From: Burkholderiales bacterium
GTDB taxonomy: Bacteria > Pseudomonadota > Gammaproteobacteria > Burkholderiales > Burkholderiaceae_C
DNA length: 64,000 nt
Assembly: GCA_016213205.1 (NCBI GenBank)
Contig: JACRAZ010000042.1
Coordinates: forward strand, 62,001-126,000
Direction: 5' to 3'
Under the pieces are notes generated by a model that saw nothing but the letters and a program-made list of their open reading frames with translations, ran no database searches and had not been told where the DNA came from. Both the position numbers and the translations under genes were made by a program. The first letter of the stretch is position 1. Each line of letters begins with the position of its first letter. Positions 27,153-43,227 of the stretch are shown piece after piece.

Positions 27153-27731
27153 ATGAACCTTTTGCCTTCCGCCAGACGCGGTCTGCTGGTGCTGGCGGCG
27201 CTGGCCGCATGCCCCTGGGCCGGCCAGGCCGCACCGAACGAGGTGGTGCAGGCCCAGCGCGCGGCCATGGAACCGATGGCCCAGTTCGACGGGCTGTGGC
27301 GTGGCACCGCCAAGGTGCTCACGCCAGACCGGCGGCAGGTGGAACTGGTGCAGACCGAGCGCGTGGGCCCCATGCTCGGCGGGGCGATCCGGGTCATCGA
27401 AGGCCGTGGCCATGGCGCGGATGGCGATCTGCAGTTCAACGCCTTCGCCGTGATGTCCTACGACCCGGCCGCCAAGACCTACAGCCTCAAGTCCTGGGCC
27501 GAGGGCCGCGAAGGCAGCTTCCCGGTCGAACTGCGGCCCGATGGCTTCATCTGGTCCATCAAGGCCGGGCCGGCAACCATTCGCTACACGGCCACGGTGA
27601 AGGACGGTGTCTGGACCGAGATCGGCGAGCGCCTGATGGAAGGGCAGCCGCCGATGCGCATCTTCGAGATGTCGGTGCGCAAGCTGGGGCCCAGCGGCTG
27701 GCCGCAGGAAGGCGCCGTGCCGCCCAAGTGA
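27153..27731 (+). CDS. Secreted lipocalin-like protein, DUF1579 type
   Basis: 192 residues from an ATG with GGAGG upstream. A signal peptide covers residues 1-24 (LLVLAALAACPWAGQAA). The mature part is an antiparallel beta pattern opening FDGLWRGTAKVLTPD and containing RVGPMLGGAIRVIEGRG and YDPAAKTYSLKSWAEGREG, which is how DUF1579-like small barrels look. No catalytic residues are recognised. Possibly a periplasmic binder of a small hydrophobic molecule. Confidence 0.75.
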   Translation: MNLLPSARRGLLVLAALAACPWAGQAAPNEVVQAQRAAMEPMAQFDGLWRGTAKVLTPDRRQVELVQTERVGPMLGGAIRVIEGRGHGADGDLQFNAFAVMSYDPAAKTYSLKSWAEGREGSFPVELRPDGFIWSIKAGPATIRYTATVKDGVWTEIGERLMEGQPPMRIFEMSVRKLGPSGWPQEGAVPPK

Positions 27732-27884
27732 ACGGCCCGCCCGGCCGGCCCCCGCGGCGGGTGGCAAAGCCGCGCTGTTCATGAAGGACTTCGCGTTGCG
27801 CACGCTGCCGGGCGGCGGGCGAGCGGCGTGCGGCCCCAGAATCGACGGACTCCACAGCCGCTGAAGTTCGACGCCCGCCACCGC

Positions 27885-29036
27885 ATGACCTTGTTCCAGA
27901 GCTGCCGCCAGGCCGCCGCGGCCCCGGGCCGGCCCCTGGCCGCGCTGCTGCTCGAAGCCTTGCGACTGCGGTTCGGTGGCAACCGGCTGGGCCTGTCCGA
28001 GTACATGGACTTCCGCCTCCACGAGGCCGATCTGTCGGGTGCCGACAAGGCCATGTTCGGCGGCGCGCGCGCGCAGGCCGTGCTCGAGGAACTGCTGATC
28101 GACGATTACGCACGCTTCCTCAGCCTGGACAAGCTGAGCATGTATGCCTTGCTGCGCGGCCACGGCTTTGCGGTGCCCGCTCTGCGGGCCACCTACCGCA
28201 GCCTGCGGCCGTCCAGCGTCACGCAGTTGCACACCCCGCAGGCGCTGGCTGCGTACCTGCGTGCACCGGGCGCGCTGCCGGTGTACCTGAAGCGCTCGTT
28301 CGGCGCCTATGGCCGCGGCAACCGGCTGGTCACGGGGCTGCAGGGCGACTCGATCGTGTTCGGCAATGCCGACACCGTGCCCTTGGCCGAGTTCTGCGCC
28401 TCGCTGGACGATGGGCGCAGCCTGGGCTGGCTGCTGCAGCAGCCGCTGCAGCCGCATGCCGAGATCGTGGCGCTGACGGGCACCCGCAAGATCTCCGGCC
28501 TGCGCGTGCACAGCTTCCTCACGCCGCGTGGTGCGCGCCTGACCCGGGCCATCTTCAAGATCAATGCCGGCGAACTGGACTCCGACAACTTCGAGCACGG
28601 CGCCAGCGGCAACCTGCTCGGGGCGGTGGACATCGACAGCGGACGCATCGTGCGCAGCATCGCGGGCACCGGCGCCGGCCAGCGCGTGAACCCGCCGCAC
28701 CCGGTCACCGGCCGCGCGCTCACCGGCTTCGTGCTGCCGCACTGGCCCGCGGTGCGTGAGCTGGTGCTCGATGCGCACCGCGCCTTCCCCGGCTTCATCT
28801 GCCCCGGCTGGGACATCGCCCTGTGCCCCGAGGGGCCCGTCATCATGGAGGTCAACGCCTTCGGCGACATCGACCTCTCCCAGCATGCCTGCCGCCGCGG
28901 CTTCCTGGACGACGAGTTCCGCGCCTTGCTGGCCGAGCGGGGCCTGCTCCCGCTGCTGCGGCCCGGTGCCGCGGGCCTGCATCGTTCACCCAGGAACCAC
29001 CGGCTGGGCCGGCGCAAGCACCACTGGCCCTGGTAG
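27885..29036 (+). CDS. ATP-grasp ligase of the sugar-transfer-associated (TupA-like) type
   Basis: About 383 residues from the ATG at 27885; a GTG at 27828 would add 19. The ATP-grasp fold is visible as LPVYLKRSFGAYGRGNRLV (nucleotide-binding lysine and Gly loop), LQQPLQPHAEI, LRVHSFLTPRGA and the metal-binding end PVIMEVNAFGDIDLSQ. The closest known group is the alpha-L-glutamate-ligase-related/TupA family, found beside genes that attach amino acids to sugars or polymers. It should form an amide via an acyl-phosphate. The C-terminus is very basic (HRLGRRKHHW). The next gene, a Mur ligase-Pth fusion, is the likely partner. Confidence 0.8.
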   Translation: MTLFQSCRQAAAAPGRPLAALLLEALRLRFGGNRLGLSEYMDFRLHEADLSGADKAMFGGARAQAVLEELLIDDYARFLSLDKLSMYALLRGHGFAVPALRATYRSLRPSSVTQLHTPQALAAYLRAPGALPVYLKRSFGAYGRGNRLVTGLQGDSIVFGNADTVPLAEFCASLDDGRSLGWLLQQPLQPHAEIVALTGTRKISGLRVHSFLTPRGARLTRAIFKINAGELDSDNFEHGASGNLLGAVDIDSGRIVRSIAGTGAGQRVNPPHPVTGRALTGFVLPHWPAVRELVLDAHRAFPGFICPGWDIALCPEGPVIMEVNAFGDIDLSQHACRRGFLDDEFRALLAERGLLPLLRPGAAGLHRSPRNHRLGRRKHHWPW

Positions 29037-29254
29037 GCGAGGGCGCCTGCCGGCGTCCGCAGCGGCCGCTTCCCAGCACTGCGTCACGCTTTCCGGCGCG
29101 CCCGCAGGGGGCGCCGATGCTAAGGTCCCACGGTGCCCGCCGTGGCCGGCCCCGGCCGGCGCGCCACGGGCACGGACGATCGTGCCGCCGAGGGCTTGGG
29201 AACGCATCGACTCACCGGCTCGGCGCCGGCCGGGTCGCGCTCGACGACTGCCAG
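29037..29254 (+). promoter_or_regulatory. Intergenic region before the Mur ligase-Pth gene
   Basis: 218 GC-rich bases with no gene. GATGCTAAGGT (29117-29127) might hold a -10, with TTTCCG (29090-29095) upstream, but the spacing is too long for a normal sigma-70 promoter. I see nothing decisive, so read-through from the ATP-grasp gene remains possible. Confidence 0.3.
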
Positions 29255-31186
29255 ATGAACCTGAAGAAATGGGGCGATGCCCTGGCCTGGCGCGTCCGCG
29301 CCCGGGTGGGTGACCAACGCATCGACAACGCCATCCTGCACCTGGCGCGCCTGTGGCGGCCGCTGCTGCGGCGGCCCACCTTCATCGCGCTGGCCGGCAG
29401 CGCCGGCAAGACGACGGCCAAGGAACTGCTCGCCGGCATCCTGGCCACCCACCAGCGCGGCGTGGCCAACCCCGGCACCTTCAACATGCTGCAGCACCTG
29501 GGCCAGACGCTGCTGAAGGTGGCGCCCTGGCACCACCACTGCGTGATGGAGCTCAGCGAAGACCAGCCCGGCGTGATGGACCGGATGCTGCCGCTGCTCA
29601 AGCCCAGCATCGCGGTGATGACCGTGGTGCGCGACGACCACCTTGCGGCGTTCGGCTCGCGTGACCAGCTGGTGCACGAGATGCTGCGCGTGGTGCAGTG
29701 CCTGCCGCCCGAGGGCATGGCGGTGCTCAATGCCGACGACCCGGTGGTGCTGGGCATGGCCGCGCAGTGCCGCGCACGCGTGCTCACCTTCGGCACGGCG
29801 GCCGGCGCCGACCTGCGCGCCGACGAGATCCAGGCCGCATGGCCCCGGCGCCTGACGATGACACTGCACTTCCGTGGCCAGCGCCTGCGTGTCGCCACGC
29901 GGCTGTGCGGCGAGCACTGGGTGCCCTCGGTGCTGGGGGCCGTCGGCGGGGCGCTCGCCTGCGGGCTCACGCTCGAGGCCTGCGCCGCCGCGCTGGCCGC
30001 GGTGGAACCCTTCGAAGGGCGCATGCAGCCGGTGGTGCTGGCCGATGGCGTGACCTTCATGCGCGACGACTTCAAGGCCCCGTGCTGGGGCATCGACGCC
30101 AGCGTGGCCTTCCTGCGTGATGCGGACGCACGCCGCAAGGTGGTGGTGCTGGGCGAGCTGTCCGAGGTTCGCTCGGGCAAATCGGCCACCTACAAGGCGG
30201 TGGCGCGCCAGTTGCTGGCGGTGGCCGACGAGGTGGTGGTCGTGGGGCCCTGGGCCACCGAGGCGCTGGCGGCCAGCGGCAGCGTGCCCGGCCGGCGCGT
30301 GGTGGCCTTCATGAGCGTGCAGCAGGCCTCGGACCACGTGAACGCCCAGGCCCGGCCGGGAGATCTGGTGCTGCTCAAGGGCTCGATCAAGCAGGACCAC
30401 CTGCAGCGCATCCTGCTGGCCCGGCTGGGCCGCTGGACCTGCTGGATCGACGATTGCCGCATGATCCGCTTCTGTGCCACCTGCTCCGAGAAGGACCGCG
30501 CCAGCCCGCAGGCCGCTGCGGTGCAACCCGCGCCGCTGCCGCTGGCCGAGGGCGGCCCCTTGCGCCAGCCGCCGGTGGCGGCGGATGAATGGCTGGTGGT
30601 CGGGCTGGGCAACGATGGTCCGGCCTACCAGGACACGCCGCACAACATCGGCTTCGACCTGGTGGACCACCTGGCGCGTGCGCACGGGCTCGTCTGGCAG
30701 CAGGACACGGCAGCCTGGGTGGCCCGCGGGCGCATCGGCGGGCGGGCGCTGTGCCTGTTGAAGCTGCGCACGCTGATGAACCTCTCCGGCCCAACGCTGC
30801 AGCACATCGCCCGGGCGGCGGGCATTTCAGCGCGCCAGATCGTGCTGGTGCACGACGACCTGCACCTGCCGCTGGGCACCGTGAAGGCACGTGCGCACGG
30901 CGGCGCAGGCGGCCACAAGGGCGTGGCATCGGTCCTCGGCAGCTTCCAGACCGATGCGATCCGCCGGATCAAGATCGGCGTGGCGCCGGCGGTGCCGGTG
31001 CTGGACCTGCCGGCCTATGTGGTCGCGCCGTGGCCCGAGGCGCTGCGGCCCGTGCTGGAGCAGAGCCTGGTGCTCGCGGTGGACCGCCTGCTCACGCTGA
31101 AAGAGGCGGAGCCGGCGCCGCAACGCCCGCCCGCAGCGCCGGTGGCTGGTGGCCCGGCACATCCGGCGCGCCAAGTCCACCCCTAA
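29255..31186 (+). CDS. MurF-like Mur ligase fused to a peptidyl-tRNA hydrolase domain
   Basis: 643 residues in one frame. Residues about 40-395 resemble the central and C-terminal domains of MurF: P-loop GSAGKTT (48-54), NPGTFNML, a MELSEDQPG strand, AVLNADDP (156-163), EGRMQPV and VVVLGELSEVRSG. The UDP-MurNAc-binding N-terminal domain is absent. A Cys-rich stretch (396-410) and a linker lead to a complete Pth domain (445-615). It has WLVVGLGNDGPAY, His463 in TPHNIGFD, LMNLSG, Asp534 in LVHDDLHLP and RRIKIGV. The Asn of GGHNG (Asn114 in E. coli Pth) is Lys555. Inferred role: ATP-dependent amide bond formation coupled to acyl-tRNA or acyl-ester handling. Confidence 0.85.
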   Translation: MNLKKWGDALAWRVRARVGDQRIDNAILHLARLWRPLLRRPTFIALAGSAGKTTAKELLAGILATHQRGVANPGTFNMLQHLGQTLLKVAPWHHHCVMELSEDQPGVMDRMLPLLKPSIAVMTVVRDDHLAAFGSRDQLVHEMLRVVQCLPPEGMAVLNADDPVVLGMAAQCRARVLTFGTAAGADLRADEIQAAWPRRLTMTLHFRGQRLRVATRLCGEHWVPSVLGAVGGALACGLTLEACAAALAAVEPFEGRMQPVVLADGVTFMRDDFKAPCWGIDASVAFLRDADARRKVVVLGELSEVRSGKSATYKAVARQLLAVADEVVVVGPWATEALAASGSVPGRRVVAFMSVQQASDHVNAQARPGDLVLLKGSIKQDHLQRILLARLGRWTCWIDDCRMIRFCATCSEKDRASPQAAAVQPAPLPLAEGGPLRQPPVAADEWLVVGLGNDGPAYQDTPHNIGFDLVDHLARAHGLVWQQDTAAWVARGRIGGRALCLLKLRTLMNLSGPTLQHIARAAGISARQIVLVHDDLHLPLGTVKARAHGGAGGHKGVASVLGSFQTDAIRRIKIGVAPAVPVLDLPAYVVAPWPEALRPVLEQSLVLAVDRLLTLKEAEPAPQRPPAAPVAGGPAHPARQVHP

Positions 31187-31299
31187 GCGCAACACCCGCG
31201 CAGCGATAACCTGCCCCCCGGGCGGCCGCTGCCCGGCGCCCGATTGGGGCTGCCGGCGTGGCCCGACCTCCGCGAACCGCGTCGCCAGGGAAGGGGCCG

Positions 31300-32247
31300 A
31301 TGGCAGGACAACGACAACCCGGCACGGTGTGCGCCGCCGATGGCTGCAGCATCGACACCGGCACCCTGTGCCGCTGGGACAGCCCGCGCCCGGGCCCGGC
31401 CGGTGCCGCCTTGCAGGGCCTGCTGGCCGGCGGCGCGGCGCCGCCCGAGGAGGGCGTGCAGATCGTGCTCACGCCGCTGCAGCTGGCCGCGATCCTCGAG
31501 CGCGAGTCGATCGAGCAGGCCGGCACGGTGAAGCAGCGCCTGTGGGGCGCGGTCACGGTGATCGGCGGCGCGCTGGAACTGGTGGGTGCGGGGGCCCTGC
31601 TGCTCACGCCCGAACCCACCACGCTGAGCAAGGTGGCCGGCGCCGCGCTGGGGGCGCACGGGCTGGACCCGGCCGGCACCGGCCTGCGGCAGATCGTCTC
31701 GGGCCGGCCCGAGACCTCGCTCACCGCCGGCGCGGCCCGGGCCGCGGCCCTGTCGATGGGCGTCAGCGAGCAGAACGCCGAGCGCATCGGCCTCACGGTG
31801 GACATCGCGATCCCGATGCTGCTGGGCCTGGCCGGCGCGGCGCGGGTGCTGGCGGTGCGCCGCGGTGCCATCAGCCTGGCCGCCGAAGAGGCCGCCGGTG
31901 GCCACACCCTGGCCCGCCACGTGGGCCGCACCGAGGCGCAGCTGCGTGCCCGGCTGGCCGCCGAGCCACGCATCCGCGCGGCCACCAGCTTCCACAGCCT
32001 GGCCGAGGCCGAGCGCTGCGTGGCCGAGGCCTTGCGCGCCCACCAGGCCGCCATCAAGGCCTGGGCCAGGCTGGCCGCGCCGGGCGAGCGGCTGCCGCTG
32101 GCCCACGACGCCGGGCGCGTGGTGGGCTTCGGCGTGCTGCGCGGCGGCCATGGCGTGCAGCAGATGTCGCGCCTGGTGGTGGTGCTGCGCAAGGTGCAGA
32201 ACAATGGGCGCACCTACTTCGTGCTGACCGCCTACCCCAAGCCCTGA
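31300..32247 (+). CDS. Polymorphic toxin with C-terminal RNase A-like (CdiA-CT type) domain
   Basis: 315 residues from an ATG with AGGGAAGG upstream. Residues about 55-190 form a helical, Gly/Ala-rich pre-toxin region (LTPLQLAAILERESIEQAG, RLWGAVTVIGGALELVG, GLRQIVSG) of the kind seen in effectors delivered to other bacteria. Residues 197-315 match the bacterial RNase A-like toxin: GGHTLARHVGRTEAQLRARL, SFHSLAEAE and the end TYFVLTAYPKP. His202, His207 and Thr310/Tyr312 are candidate active-site residues. No signal peptide is seen, so secretion would need another system (T6SS or a fusion partner), not in the window. The immunity gene follows after seven bases. Confidence 0.82.
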   Translation: MAGQRQPGTVCAADGCSIDTGTLCRWDSPRPGPAGAALQGLLAGGAAPPEEGVQIVLTPLQLAAILERESIEQAGTVKQRLWGAVTVIGGALELVGAGALLLTPEPTTLSKVAGAALGAHGLDPAGTGLRQIVSGRPETSLTAGAARAAALSMGVSEQNAERIGLTVDIAIPMLLGLAGAARVLAVRRGAISLAAEEAAGGHTLARHVGRTEAQLRARLAAEPRIRAATSFHSLAEAERCVAEALRAHQAAIKAWARLAAPGERLPLAHDAGRVVGFGVLRGGHGVQQMSRLVVVLRKVQNNGRTYFVLTAYPKP

Positions 32248-32254
32248 CCTGCCT

Positions 32255-32593
32255 GTGAACGCAACCGGCCCCGTGCCCCATCCCTATGCCCACCTGGCCA
32301 GCCTGCTGGCCGCCTGGTTCCACCAGGACTTCGACCTCGCCGGTCCCACCGCCGAAGCCGTGGCCGAGGCCTACCGCCGCGCCACGCGGGCCGACGAAGT
32401 GGCGCGCGCGGCGCAGGACATCGAGCGCTTCCTGCACGACCATGCGGGCCTGCCGCCGGCGCAACTGGGCGCGCGTTTCGACTCCCTGTTCGAGCCCGAG
32501 GTCGACCCGCTGGGCTTCGCGCCCTCGGTCGAGGCATTCCTGCGTGCCGTGCAGCGCGTGCTGCAGGCGCCGCCCGCTCCACCATCGCGCTAG
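32255..32593 (+). CDS. CdiI-type immunity protein
   Basis: 112 residues from a GTG seven bases after the toxin stop. The sequence LASLLAAWFHQDFDLAG, followed by an acidic helical part (RAAQDIERFLHDH), is the pattern of the CdiI_2 contact-dependent-inhibition immunity family (consensus around YFHQDWD). It should bind and neutralise the RNase A-like domain encoded upstream. The assignment rests on both sequence pattern and position. Confidence 0.82.
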   Translation: MNATGPVPHPYAHLASLLAAWFHQDFDLAGPTAEAVAEAYRRATRADEVARAAQDIERFLHDHAGLPPAQLGARFDSLFEPEVDPLGFAPSVEAFLRAVQRVLQAPPAPPSR

Positions 32594-39248: not shown

Positions 39249-39351
39249 CGCCGCCCCGTCGGGCGCCCTGTTTTTGGGCCATGATCCGGGAGTCAGTGGC
39301 GGCGCGCCCACGCGCGCCGCGAGCCCTGCCTTACCCTCTGGAGAACCATCG

Positions 39352-42300
39352 ATGTCTGCACTCGGCAACTACAGCCCCGCAGCGGTCAGCGCCGTCAAGG
39401 CCATCTCGTACACCTTCCGTGCCGCGCCCACGGCCGATATCGTGCTGTGGGCCGTCAACAGCTTCAATGCCGGCGGCAGCCCGGCCCAGTTGCTGGACAC
39501 CGTGTTCAACCTGTCGGTGCCGCAATCGCCGTTCTCGGCCTACGCCGCGAGCTCGACCAACGCCGCGTTCTGCACCGCCTTCGTCGAGAACTTCACCTTC
39601 GGCAGCGGCATCAGCAATGCCACCAAGGCCGCCTGGGCCAGCGAACTGGTGACGCTGCTGGCGGCCTACCCGTCGCGGGGTGCGTTCACGGTGGCCGTGA
39701 TCGGGCTGATCGACAACTACAGCGGCAGCGATGCCGACATCCTGGCGCTGAAGAACACGCTGGCCGCCCGTGCCGAGGCCGCGGCGGCCTATGCACAGTC
39801 GCCCGCCGGCGCGGTGTACGACGGGCAGGGCTGGACCCAGTTGCTCGCACCGCTGCTGCCGCCGCCCACACCCACCTATGCGCTCAGCGCCAACGTCAGC
39901 AGTGTCAACGAAGGCGGCACCATCCTCTACACGCTGCAGACCACCAACGTGGCGGCCGGCAGCAGCATCGCCTACACGCTGGCCGGCACCGGCATCACGG
40001 CCGGCGACGTGGTGCTGGGCCAGCTCGGCGGCACCATGGTGATCAACAACGCCGGCGTGGGCACGGCGGTCGTCACCCTGGTGAGCGACCAGCTCACCGA
40101 AGGCACCGAAACCCTGCGCCTGCTGCTGAGCAACGGCCAGGGCCAGGTGGACGTCACGGTCAACGACACCAGCGTCGCGCCGCCGCCGCCGGCCACCTAT
40201 GCGCTGTCGGCCAACGGCACCGCGCGTGACGAGGGCACCGATGTCGTCATCACGCTGACCACCACCAACCTGGCCGCCGGCACGGTGGTGAACTACACGC
40301 TGTCGGGCAGCGGGCTCACCACCGCCGACCTGGCCAGCGGCGTGCTGTCGGGCAGCTTCATCGTCGGCGGGCAGGGCACGGCCAGCGCCATCATCGGCCT
40401 GGTGGCCGACGCGCTGACCGAAGGCACCGAGACCCTGCGCCTGCAACTGACCGGCGGCCTGGGCCAGATCGACGTGACGATCAACGACACCAGCCTCACG
40501 CCGGCGCCGGTGGGCACGCCCGACACGGTGATCGTGGCCGACAACATGGCCAACAACGCCGCCCATGCGCCGGGCTCGGCCGCCGAGGGCGAGATCGCCA
40601 TCAACACCTACCTGAACCACGACCTGCTGAACCAGGCCGGCGTGGACGACGTGCGCATGACGATCGTCGCGCTCAAGGCCACCAACGCCACGGCCGGAGC
40701 ACCGGCCGACAACACCAACCAGAGCGCCGACCGTGCCAACGTGCCGCAGGTGAGCAACCAGACGCTGTTCACCTTCGACACCGGGCTGCTGACCGACCGC
40801 GTGGACTACAGCGCCGAGACGGGCAAGATCGTCGCGGTGATCAGCATCGAGCTGCCACCGGCCACGCAGTACGTGCTGGTCAACGACAACGGCACCGACA
40901 ACGTCTTCAATCAGGCCACCGACCGCATCGACACGCTCAAGCATGTCGAGGAGGTGGTGGCCTCAGCCGGTGGCGGCGTGCTCGACCTGACGAACTCCGA
41001 GACCGAGTGGCTGATCAACTTCAGCCGCAACTTCACCCCGGCCACCGACATCAACACCACCACCGACCGGGCCACCCACCGCATCGAGATCAGCAACCTG
41101 CTGACCGGCGTGCCCTACGAGCGCAGCTACATCGACTACCGCGACGGGGGCCAGAACGCCAACGCCCTGCAGCCCACGGCCGCCTGGACCAGCGTGCAGG
41201 GCAGCGACCATGCCGAGACGCTGGTGTTCACCAGCCACGAGTCGCTGGAGGCGCGCACCAACGTGCTGCGCGGCGGCAACAACAGCGTGAAGTTCAACGA
41301 GCTCACGCGCAGCATCCTGGTGGATGTGAGCCTCACGCCCTGGGTGGCCAGCACCAACCTGGCCGACAACACCAACAGCACCGGCACCATCACCGCCACC
41401 ACCACCTTCACCAATGGTGACGGCGTCACGCCGCTGTCGGGCAACACCAACGTCATCAGCTCGCACACGCCGGACAACAACATCGCCGCCGGCAGCCTGG
41501 CGATCGTCGCGTCGCAGGACGCCGAGGACGCCATCAGCTTCGCCAGCAGCCCCTTGCCCAAGTGGTTCGTGCTCGGGCAATCGAGCGGCGGCACCGACAG
41601 CGTCGGCGTGCGCCTGGCCGCAGGCCCGTCCACCAACGCGCTGCAGCTCAGCGGGTTCGAGTTCCTGCGCGACAACGGCGCCTCTGACGATGTCTACGAG
41701 ATCAGCAGCATCTTCAAGGCCACGCAGGGCAGCCCGCGGCTCACCGACGGCGTTGCCAACGACCACGACACCATCCGCCTGGCCACCGAGGCGCTGGGCT
41801 CCTCGGCCGTGGGCGGCGCGGTGGGGGCGGTGAACCTGGGCACGCTCATCGGCGCGGCGCCGGGCTTCAATGTCGATTTCGACGTGCTGGACCTCAGTGC
41901 CGTCACCGCCAGCGCGCTGCTTGCCACGGGCACGGCGGGCACCGACGACGAGCTCGTCGTGGGCCCGCTGGGCACGCTGGGCGCGGTGGCGCAGTTCGAG
42001 ACCCTGGTGCTGACCAACAGCTCCAACGACAAGGGCAACGTGCTCACGCTGGACCTGGACGCCGGCGTGGTGAAGGCCGGCGCCACCACCTTGTTCGCCT
42101 ACGGCGGCTCGGTGCTCAGTGCCGGCGGCCTGGTCTACAACACCGCCGGCCAGGCCGGTGCCGTGGCGCCGATGAACACCGGCATGCACATCACCGTGGT
42201 CGACACCACCGCCGGCCCGGGCGGCACGCTCTGGGGCGGCAGCGCGGCCGACCTGCTGACCGGCGGCGCCGGCAACGACATCCTGCGTGGCGGCAACGGC

Positions 42301-43227
42301 AACGACACCCTCAGCGGCGGCGTTCCGCCCGGCAACCCGAGCTTCGCCGAGACCTGGACCTTCACGATCAGCGGCACGCCCGATGCGGTGGCCAACCCCT
42401 CGAACCGGATCACGATCGCGATGACGATCGACGGCACCGGCCTCACGCTGGCCGAAGCGCCCGGCGATGACACGAGCTACGGCGACGGCAACGGCACCTT
42501 CGCCGACGGCACGGCCACCGCACTTATCGGCACCGCGATGGCGGCGCTGATCAACGCCAACCTGGCCACCATCAACGCCGGCCCGGGCACCGGCACGCTC
42601 ACCGGCGCCAGCTTCAATGCCGGCAACAACCAGGTGACCCTGACCTTCGCGGCGGGTGTCAACGCCAACGATGCGGTGACCTTCCTGCTGGCCAGCGGGG
42701 CGTCGCCCGACGGCGGCAACTTCGCGCTCTCGGCCGGCGTCAACGTGAACGGCGGCAACGGCGGCAATGACACCTTCGTGTTCGAGAAGACCGGTGCGCT
42801 CAACGGCTCCGACCTGATCAACAACTTCACCGCCGCATCGGACAAGCTCGATGTCTCGGCCTTCGCCGGGGCGGCGATCTCGGCCGCCTCGACCTCGATC
42901 AACGCCACCACCGGGGGCACGTTCGCGGGCGTGGCCACCACGGCCGAGTTCATCTACAACAAGGCCCTGGGCCAGATCTCCACGGCCGACTTCGCCACTA
43001 CGGCCACCGCGGGCAAGTTTGCGCTGCCCGACGGCACGCGTTGCGTGGTGGCGGTCACGGCCGACCCCACCGGTGCCCGGGGCGACGCGGCCAACACCGC
43101 GGTGTCGCTGTACTTCGTGGAGAACGGCGCGGCGGCGGGCCTGGGGGACCTGTCGGTGTCGCTGGTGGGCACCATCACCGGCCCGGTGGAGCTGACGCTG
43201 GGCGAGATCTACACCGCGCTGACCTGA
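39352..43227 (+). CDS. Large secreted RTX protein with Calx-beta repeats
   Basis: 1291 residues, no Sec signal peptide, as expected for type I secretion. An N-terminal helical region (1-165) is followed by two Calx-beta-like repeats at about 175-385, each ending LTEGTETLRL...NDTS. A long beta-rich, Asn/Thr-rich body follows. Calcium-binding RTX nonapeptides at about 963-990 (GGAGNDILRGGNGNDTLSGG) are split by about 150 residues from a last NGGNGGNDTFVFEK. It ends with an SLVGTITG region that may carry the secretion signal. Probably an S-layer-like or adhesive surface protein. The T1SS genes are not in the window. Confidence 0.8.
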   Translation: MSALGNYSPAAVSAVKAISYTFRAAPTADIVLWAVNSFNAGGSPAQLLDTVFNLSVPQSPFSAYAASSTNAAFCTAFVENFTFGSGISNATKAAWASELVTLLAAYPSRGAFTVAVIGLIDNYSGSDADILALKNTLAARAEAAAAYAQSPAGAVYDGQGWTQLLAPLLPPPTPTYALSANVSSVNEGGTILYTLQTTNVAAGSSIAYTLAGTGITAGDVVLGQLGGTMVINNAGVGTAVVTLVSDQLTEGTETLRLLLSNGQGQVDVTVNDTSVAPPPPATYALSANGTARDEGTDVVITLTTTNLAAGTVVNYTLSGSGLTTADLASGVLSGSFIVGGQGTASAIIGLVADALTEGTETLRLQLTGGLGQIDVTINDTSLTPAPVGTPDTVIVADNMANNAAHAPGSAAEGEIAINTYLNHDLLNQAGVDDVRMTIVALKATNATAGAPADNTNQSADRANVPQVSNQTLFTFDTGLLTDRVDYSAETGKIVAVISIELPPATQYVLVNDNGTDNVFNQATDRIDTLKHVEEVVASAGGGVLDLTNSETEWLINFSRNFTPATDINTTTDRATHRIEISNLLTGVPYERSYIDYRDGGQNANALQPTAAWTSVQGSDHAETLVFTSHESLEARTNVLRGGNNSVKFNELTRSILVDVSLTPWVASTNLADNTNSTGTITATTTFTNGDGVTPLSGNTNVISSHTPDNNIAAGSLAIVASQDAEDAISFASSPLPKWFVLGQSSGGTDSVGVRLAAGPSTNALQLSGFEFLRDNGASDDVYEISSIFKATQGSPRLTDGVANDHDTIRLATEALGSSAVGGAVGAVNLGTLIGAAPGFNVDFDVLDLSAVTASALLATGTAGTDDELVVGPLGTLGAVAQFETLVLTNSSNDKGNVLTLDLDAGVVKAGATTLFAYGGSVLSAGGLVYNTAGQAGAVAPMNTGMHITVVDTTAGPGGTLWGGSAADLLTGGAGNDILRGGNGNDTLSGGVPPGNPSFAETWTFTISGTPDAVANPSNRITIAMTIDGTGLTLAEAPGDDTSYGDGNGTFADGTATALIGTAMAALINANLATINAGPGTGTLTGASFNAGNNQVTLTFAAGVNANDAVTFLLASGASPDGGNFALSAGVNVNGGNGGNDTFVFEKTGALNGSDLINNFTAASDKLDVSAFAGAAISAASTSINATTGGTFAGVATTAEFIYNKALGQISTADFATTATAGKFALPDGTRCVVAVTADPTGARGDAANTAVSLYFVENGAAAGLGDLSVSLVGTITGPVELTLGEIYTALT

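Follow-up and report, generated by a model that had tools for sequence, protein, structure and literature searches.

A Mur-type ligase fused to a peptidyl-tRNA hydrolase domain in Burkholderiales, and a possible tRNA-dependent route to amide bonds

One gene of a Burkholderiales genome carries, in a single polypeptide, the core of a Mur-type ligase and a peptidyl-tRNA hydrolase (Pth1) domain. The fusion is genuine: homologues with the same architecture occur in other genomes, and an assembly artefact is rejected on that ground. Several functions can be envisioned for such a protein. The one that we favor, tentatively and with distinctly less than even confidence, is that of a two-step, tRNA-dependent amide ligase acting on a surface-polysaccharide precursor. 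The features concerned lie in the window, by which we mean the whole stretch of 64,000 nucleotides that was analyzed, and are as follows.

27828..29036, plus strand: ATP-grasp gene, PF14397, sugar-transfer associated (Pfam E 6.6e-24)
29255..31186, plus strand: fused gene of 643 aa, with Mur-type ligase core, four-Cys motif and Pth1 domain
29255..29377, plus strand: basic N-terminal helices, residues 1-41 (net charge +7 by charge count)
29393..29944, plus strand: Mur_ligase_M, the ATP-binding P-loop domain, residues 47-230 (Pfam E 5.2e-28)
30017..30385, plus strand: Mur_ligase_C, residues 255-377 (Pfam E 8.5e-16)
30440..30484, plus strand: four-Cys motif CWIDDCRMIRFCATC, residues 396-410, between ligase and Pth domains
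30593..31090, plus strand: Pth1 domain (Pept_tRNA_hydro), residues 447-612 (Pfam E 3.6e-40)

Architecture and distribution of the fused gene

An earlier note on this DNA had read 29255-31186 (+) as a Mur ligase and a Pth in one unbroken frame, and this is borne out: the frame is open for 643 codons, and every motif named there (GSAGKTT, NADDP, GLGNDG, HNIGFD, MNLSG and HDDLHLP) is present in its translation. All three Pfam families (PF08245, PF02875 and PF01195) exceed their cut-offs in the window protein. The hydrolase part scores 138.2 against a cut-off of 27 for PF01195 and 125.8 against 100 for the NCBIfam model TIGR00447 (Pth). Among the NCBIfam models, that of MurF (TIGR01143) lies nearest to the ligase part; its score of 191.6 bits stays below the cut-off (288.6), and the match begins at profile position 59; the UDP-MurNAc-binding N-terminal domain of MurF is therefore absent, as had been claimed. 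Its position appears to be taken by the basic helices (residues 3-18 and 20-37 in the AlphaFold2 model), which may have some role of their own. At E<=0.01, the domains that Pfam found in the window protein are Mur and Pth alone, with no lantibiotic-dehydratase domain.

The AlphaFold2 model, whose input alignment included 15 fused homologues, has a mean pLDDT of 85.7 and a pTM of 0.81, with values below 50 confined to residues 420-436 and 619-643. The best PDB matches returned by Foldseek are MurF, and MurF supplies the best solved relatives by sequence as well; two Pth structures (TMt 0.85 and 0.88) are among the matches listed.

The Mur-Pth order was found in 15 proteins from 7 genomes, which is to say the window protein and 14 homologues in 6 other genomes, with up to four copies in tandem. 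One further protein, in genome G1084, has the reverse order, Pth-Mur (L141:9653-11572, minus strand), and ends just past the four-Cys motif. The two possibilities that the earlier note had held against itself, a sequencing error joining two genes and homologues encoded always as separate genes, both give way before these fused proteins, which its proposed search for the same domain pair has brought to light. An assembly error or a chance fusion without function could draw on a sample of 20 other genomes of the genus, all of which lack the fusion, but it is refuted by the 15 same-order proteins and the reverse-order one, and we give it next to no probability.

The fusion is nonetheless rare, and strict E limits would miss distant members. 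In a sample of 60 genomes (the window genome with 20 others of its genus, 15 of its family and 24 of its order, some of them incomplete), it occurs in the window genome only (1/60); none of the 20 other genus members has it, several of these being incomplete. The window genome is counted in every sample, and the family, order, class and phylum samples overlap. With a single-protein query at E<=1e-32, 4/399 genomes of the family sample gave strong matches, the window genome among them, and G070, G274 and G064 hold fused genes in tandem; gene calling and a Pth search put the number of fused copies in G070 at four. An alignment query at E<=1e-60 matched 4/399 genomes of the order sample, where the window genome and G591 have the fusion and the match in G518 and G722 is confined to the ligase part. 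The same query matched 5/369 in the class sample: fused genes in the window genome and G1120, the reverse-order fusion in G1084, and ligase-only matches in G880 and G1107, the last with unfused four-Cys Mur ligases in tandem (L140:8525-11199). In the phylum sample it matched 5/398, with the window genome fused and four genomes of one genus matching in the ligase part only.

Wider searches added one locus. A contig scan with the single-protein query gave 17 stretches, none confirmed as a relative; with the alignment query, the best 80 of at least 544 relatives include one locus that matches into the Pth part, a Propionivibrio MAG holding four tandem fused genes. A mobile-element origin was considered as well: a pattern scan of viral contigs found no relative, and of 103 plasmid matches, all of them partial, not one reached 80% coverage of the query.

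The fusion is extra to the housekeeping set, since the window genome also holds a stand-alone Pth and two further matches to Mur-type ligases, and all 7 fused G genomes searched (G1084 included, Propionivibrio outside the count) have one unfused Pth each. All six genomes with the unfused ligase only (G518, G722, G880, G1107, G1205 and G1225) have a single Pth, and a dedicated Pth is therefore not obligatory.

Where several copies stand in tandem, they pair across genomes. G070_3 groups with Prop_4 (support 100/98) and G070_2 with Prop_3 (support 90/96), at ligase-part identities of 73 and 74%. The copies therefore diverged before the G070 and Propionivibrio lineages separated, and they were kept; such early divergence would fit, as expected, a different specificity for each copy. 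Copies 2 and 3 of Propionivibrio have 375 identical bases in common (L035:6373-10198), which suggests either gene conversion or a fault in the MAG assembly.

Sequence features of the ligase and hydrolase domains

Behind the ligase, all 16 fusions carry the consensus CWxx[DE]Cx5Cx2C. Four cysteines spaced identically or almost so occur in 7/7 unfused relatives and in 0/6 MurFs (the MurF set being the 6 sequences obtained from 16 loci given), and the motif is also present in 3/3 unfused relatives added later. The ligase tree splits the six MurFs from the four-Cys group with support 100/100. Judged from these alignments, the motif, a possible metal knuckle, marks a Mur subfamily distinct from MurF.

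The C domain differs as well. Where 6/6 aligned MurFs have DDxYNANPxS, the fusions have RDDxKAPxW in 15 of 16 cases (the exception is G1084); the window protein reads RDDFKAPCW. From this replacement, the nucleophile is probably not the dipeptide used by MurF. K52, E99 and H129 are kept in 16/16 fusions, and the ligase looks like a working enzyme with a different nucleophile. The P-loop of the G1084 protein is degenerate (GSFAKTA), and its ligase may differ from the others. Loss of the Mur carbamylated lysine was considered as a further clue and dropped, that column being K in only 2/6 aligned MurFs.

Well-supported branches of the ligase tree force three gains or losses of the fusion: 14 fused proteins form one clade, G1120 sits next to unfused G518, and G1084 next to unfused G880. 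All fused domains lie on one side of a branch of the Pth tree (support 94/87); given the long branches of G1120 and G1084, this does no more than suggest that the Pth partner arose once.

Residues of the Pth domain are given here in E. coli numbering. N10, H20, N21, N68, D93 and H113 are kept in 16/16 fusions; N10, H20 and D93 have been described as crucial in Pth (PMC4929431). M67 is M in 12 of the 16, and in the Pth part the 14 other normal-order fusions are 33-51% identical to the window protein. The positions of K105 and R133, the residues that clamp the tRNA 5' phosphate in Pth, stay basic in 15/16 (R12/K3/A1) and 16/16 (K13/R3), respectively.

Other positions have changed throughout or nearly so. 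N114, which is N in 13/13 housekeeping Pths, is replaced in 16/16 fusions (R14/K2), the reverse-order G1084 protein having R like other fusions. R19 has become P and E94 has become D in 15/16, each being kept in G1084, and none of the 16 retains H138 of the GHPG motif. The domain looks like a working or a modified hydrolase, and with the changes at N114, R19 and H138, it may have a different ester as its substrate or may be inactive.

Gene neighborhoods and co-occurrence

The ATP-grasp gene, which may start instead at ATG 27885, ends 218 bp upstream of the fused gene on the same strand. A promoter-like site was not found in 27600-31400, and shuffles gave the same result (mean 0.1). Two ATP-grasp relatives adjoin the fusions in each of G070, Propionivibrio and G591, and two adjoin the unfused ligase gene of G518; in G064, G274 and G1120 the ATP-grasp gene lies away from the fusion. 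Limits of neighboring genes on GC-rich loci come from our own seeded gene calling.

Across genomes, ATP-grasp_ST is over cut-off in 6/6 normal-order fused genomes (Propionivibrio outside the set), while G1084 (85% complete) was found to have neither ATP-grasp_ST nor XrtA. In a sample of 80 family genomes, 4/80 are over cut-off, made up of 3/3 fused genomes and 1/77 others (hypergeometric p 4.9e-5, a value that ignores shared ancestry, G064 and G274 being of one genus); at the loose limit of E<=0.001, 26/80 have some match. The XrtA exosortase is likewise over cut-off in 6/6 normal-order fused genomes searched, against a background of 66/250 family genomes over cut-off and 117/250 with some match at E<=0.001. 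The enrichment has a p of 0.0045 on four fused family members, again ignoring shared ancestry.

XrtA-associated exopolysaccharide clusters surround relatives in three genomes: G591, Propionivibrio and unfused G518. In G591, the fusion lies within one 19.9-kb stretch with TIGR03098, 3099, 3100, 3101 and 3694 genes; the stretch holds two ATP-grasps, an XrtA-associated decarboxylase, an AMP-ligase, hydrolases 1 and 2, a carrier-protein gene (PF00550), an exosortase-associated acyltransferase and a two-domain GNAT protein. After the fused array of Propionivibrio come the genes of hydrolases 1 and 2 (TIGR03100 and 3101) and that of a carrier protein (PF00550). G518 has an XrtA-system glycosyltransferase nearby and XrtA about 10 kb away, and the annotated surroundings of an unfused relative on a Gemmobacter plasmid (L120) include glycosyltransferases and a pyruvyl transferase. 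At the window locus, the ATP-grasp/fusion pair stands alone, outside any XrtA cluster, and XrtA is on another contig. Taken together, the gene context of the relatives argues that the family most likely serves surface-polysaccharide assembly.

Some further neighbors may be recorded here. An asparagine-synthase-type amidotransferase lies beside the unfused four-Cys ligase of G880 (L139) and another about 5 kb from that of G518 (L122). A valyl-type aminoacyl-tRNA synthetase gene is found about 6 kb from the former (L139:45-2753), and a class II synthetase gene that includes an editing domain lies at some 5 kb from the latter (L122:2374-4080); these synthetase genes are probably housekeeping and their proximity coincidental. 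In G070, a GNAT/FemAB-like gene before the array (L031:4660-5815) appears split over two frames in the draft assembly. Directly downstream of the fusion in the window, 31258-32247 (+) encodes an RNase A-like CdiA-CT toxin domain (PF18431, E 4e-35), and the small ORF that follows (32255-32593, +) could, as a guess, encode its immunity protein. A long ORF at 39274-43227 (+), of 1317 aa, resembles on visual inspection a secreted protein with repeats.

Proposed reaction, alternatives and known systems

Mur ligases activate a carboxylate as an acyl phosphate, to which an amine is then added, and Pth1 enzymes need an N-blocked aminoacyl-tRNA, which is just the product to be expected of a ligase acting on aminoacyl-tRNA. 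Ligation that depends on tRNA, followed by removal of the tRNA, would be the simplest chemistry to require both domains in one chain. In the first step, the Mur core with ATP would activate as an acyl phosphate a carboxylate that belongs either to a precursor of the surface polysaccharide or to a peptide growing from it. The free amine of an aminoacyl-tRNA would attack, yielding an N-acyl-aminoacyl-tRNA that is chemically a peptidyl-tRNA. In the second, the Pth domain would hydrolyze the ester, releasing the tRNA and a new carboxylate ready for the next cycle. Divergent tandem copies might each add a different residue, and the ATP-grasp ligase or ligases might prime or cap the chain. The reaction itself, the use of aminoacyl-tRNA, the order of the steps, the acceptor and a metal at the Cys motif are what we infer.

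Besides this match of product to substrate, for which PEARLs offer a precedent, tRNA-dependent ligation gains from the carriage of Pth in both orders with three gains or losses, from the kept Pth residues together with the basic K105/R133 positions, from the replaced motif of the Mur C domain, from the status of the fusion as an addition to the housekeeping enzymes, and from the co-occurrence with ATP-grasp_ST and XrtA, the XrtA-associated neighbors in G591 and Propionivibrio and the cross-genome copy pairs. Counting against it are the altered Pth pocket and the lone Pth of unfused-ligase genomes; the degenerate P-loop of G1084, a genome in which neither ATP-grasp_ST nor XrtA was found; the position of the window locus outside an XrtA cluster and the three remote ATP-grasp genes; and the frequency of loose-limit ATP-grasp_ST and XrtA matches in the family.

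Other readings are conceivable. The Pth domain could be a specificity module or a non-catalytic one, which, with no hydrolysis, holds tRNA so that the ligase receives its aminoacyl end, or regulates the ligase; CRS2, a plant splicing factor, is a Pth homologue that works without hydrolysis, and its solved structure is among the sequence matches of the window protein. The changes at N114 and H138 in 16/16 fusions fit such a role, but retention of N10, H20, D93, N68 and H113 in all of them, despite 33-51% identity, would be unusual in a dead enzyme, and we think it unlikely. Distinctly unlikely too is an editing or clean-up role, in which the ligase would use free amino acids and the Pth domain would rescue aminoacyl-tRNAs accidentally N-acylated by a promiscuous ligase or by neighboring GNAT-fold enzymes. 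GNAT (PF13480) proteins do occur at no more than about 5 kb from the G070 and G591 fusions and from the unfused G518 gene, and genomes with the unfused ligase only manage on one Pth; yet the role would be redundant with the unfused Pth that all 7 fused genomes searched possess, and it leaves the changed Mur C-domain motif unexplained.

To much the same degree, it is improbable that the Pth fold now serves a different ester or thioester, for example an aminoacyl group on an XrtA-cluster carrier protein or on a sugar, with no tRNA involved. The N114 to R/K and R19 to P replacements, the loss of GHPG, and the carrier-protein genes of the G591 stretch and after the Propionivibrio array would suit such a substrate, but not the K105 and R133 positions that stay basic in 15/16 and 16/16. 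The earlier note had suggested that amino acids or peptides might be moved or salvaged from tRNA onto an acceptor. Salvage, with Pth freeing peptides from peptidyl-tRNA and the ligase attaching them to an acceptor, agrees with one chain carrying both activities, as predicted from its domains; drop-off peptides from peptidyl-tRNA are of mixed sequence, however, and the cross-genome pairing of tandem copies suggests defined substrates, so that we consider it very improbable. The direction from tRNA to acceptor survives in tRNA-dependent ligation, which would nevertheless be new synthesis with Pth acting last. That note had also overlooked the four-Cys motif, the ATP-grasp neighbor, the tandem arrays, the N114 to R/K change and the exosortase context.

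An extension of tRNA-dependent ligation, which we regard as doubtful, is that arrays of up to four genes encode an ordered oligopeptide written onto an XrtA-type exopolysaccharide from charged tRNA, without ribosomes, each enzyme using a single kind of aminoacyl-tRNA. If tRNA-dependent ligation is right, the fold of a housekeeping peptidyl-tRNA hydrolase would have gained a biosynthetic role, a second and unrelated enzyme family would join PEARL-like chemistry, and the chemistry of the exopolysaccharides associated with XrtA/PEP-CTERM would become accessible to tests. Zoogloea and Aquincola are reported to require exopolysaccharide and PEP-CTERM genes in order to form flocs (PMC9012009, PMC9850573). 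The G591 fused protein, like that of the window, exceeds the curated Pth cut-off (two fusions scanned); automatic annotation may therefore call such proteins plain aminoacyl-tRNA hydrolases, a naming that may hide the fusion family.

The component families are known. Nothing in the literature searched appears to describe the architecture, the four-Cys Mur subfamily or the tandem arrays, and the earlier note likewise knew of no description of the domain pair; most subscription papers lay outside this search. Within that scope, no paper was found for the domain pair, for the four-Cys ligase or fusion family in an exosortase context, for exosortase with Mur ligase, for exosortase with ATP-grasp and exopolysaccharide, for peptide aminoacyl-tRNA ligase with peptidyl-tRNA, or for Pth Lys105 with Arg133.

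The protein can be compared with several known systems. The P-loop Mur core and C domain are common to MurF and the window protein, whereas the UDP-MurNAc domain and DDxYNANPxS belong to MurF and RDDxKAPxW and the four-Cys tail to the window protein. With Pth1 it shares the fold and N10, H20 and D93, but in the 15 normal-order fusions Pth is the C-terminal domain of a ligase, and the fusions differ in N114 (R/K), R19 (P in 15/16) and the lost GHPG. In cyanophycin synthetase CphA, an ATP-grasp ligase works with a Mur ligase and free amino acids are used; CphA is one chain with no Pth, whereas the ATP-grasp of the window is a separate PF14397 gene, and the window protein scores only 41.2 against a cut-off of 877 with NF010623 and 31.4 against 850 with TIGR02068. 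Mur ligases adjoin some cyclodipeptide synthases according to a paper in which peptidyl-tRNA hydrolase does not occur (PMC2922099).

Two further systems use aminoacyl-tRNA. FemABX enzymes draw on it, without the ribosome, in making surface polymers (PMC12945691), but they have a GNAT fold and move the aminoacyl group from tRNA to the acceptor, a polarity opposite to the one proposed here. PEARLs are lantibiotic-dehydratase-like (PMC11212132) and have an ATP-grasp-like site; in them, a carboxylate is phosphorylated, the amine of an aminoacyl-tRNA attacks, and the tRNA is hydrolyzed (PMC11962472). The proposed reaction of the fusion would follow the same three steps as PEARLs such as BhaBC and TglB, though with a Mur-type ligase, a Pth domain of its own and no lantibiotic-dehydratase domain.
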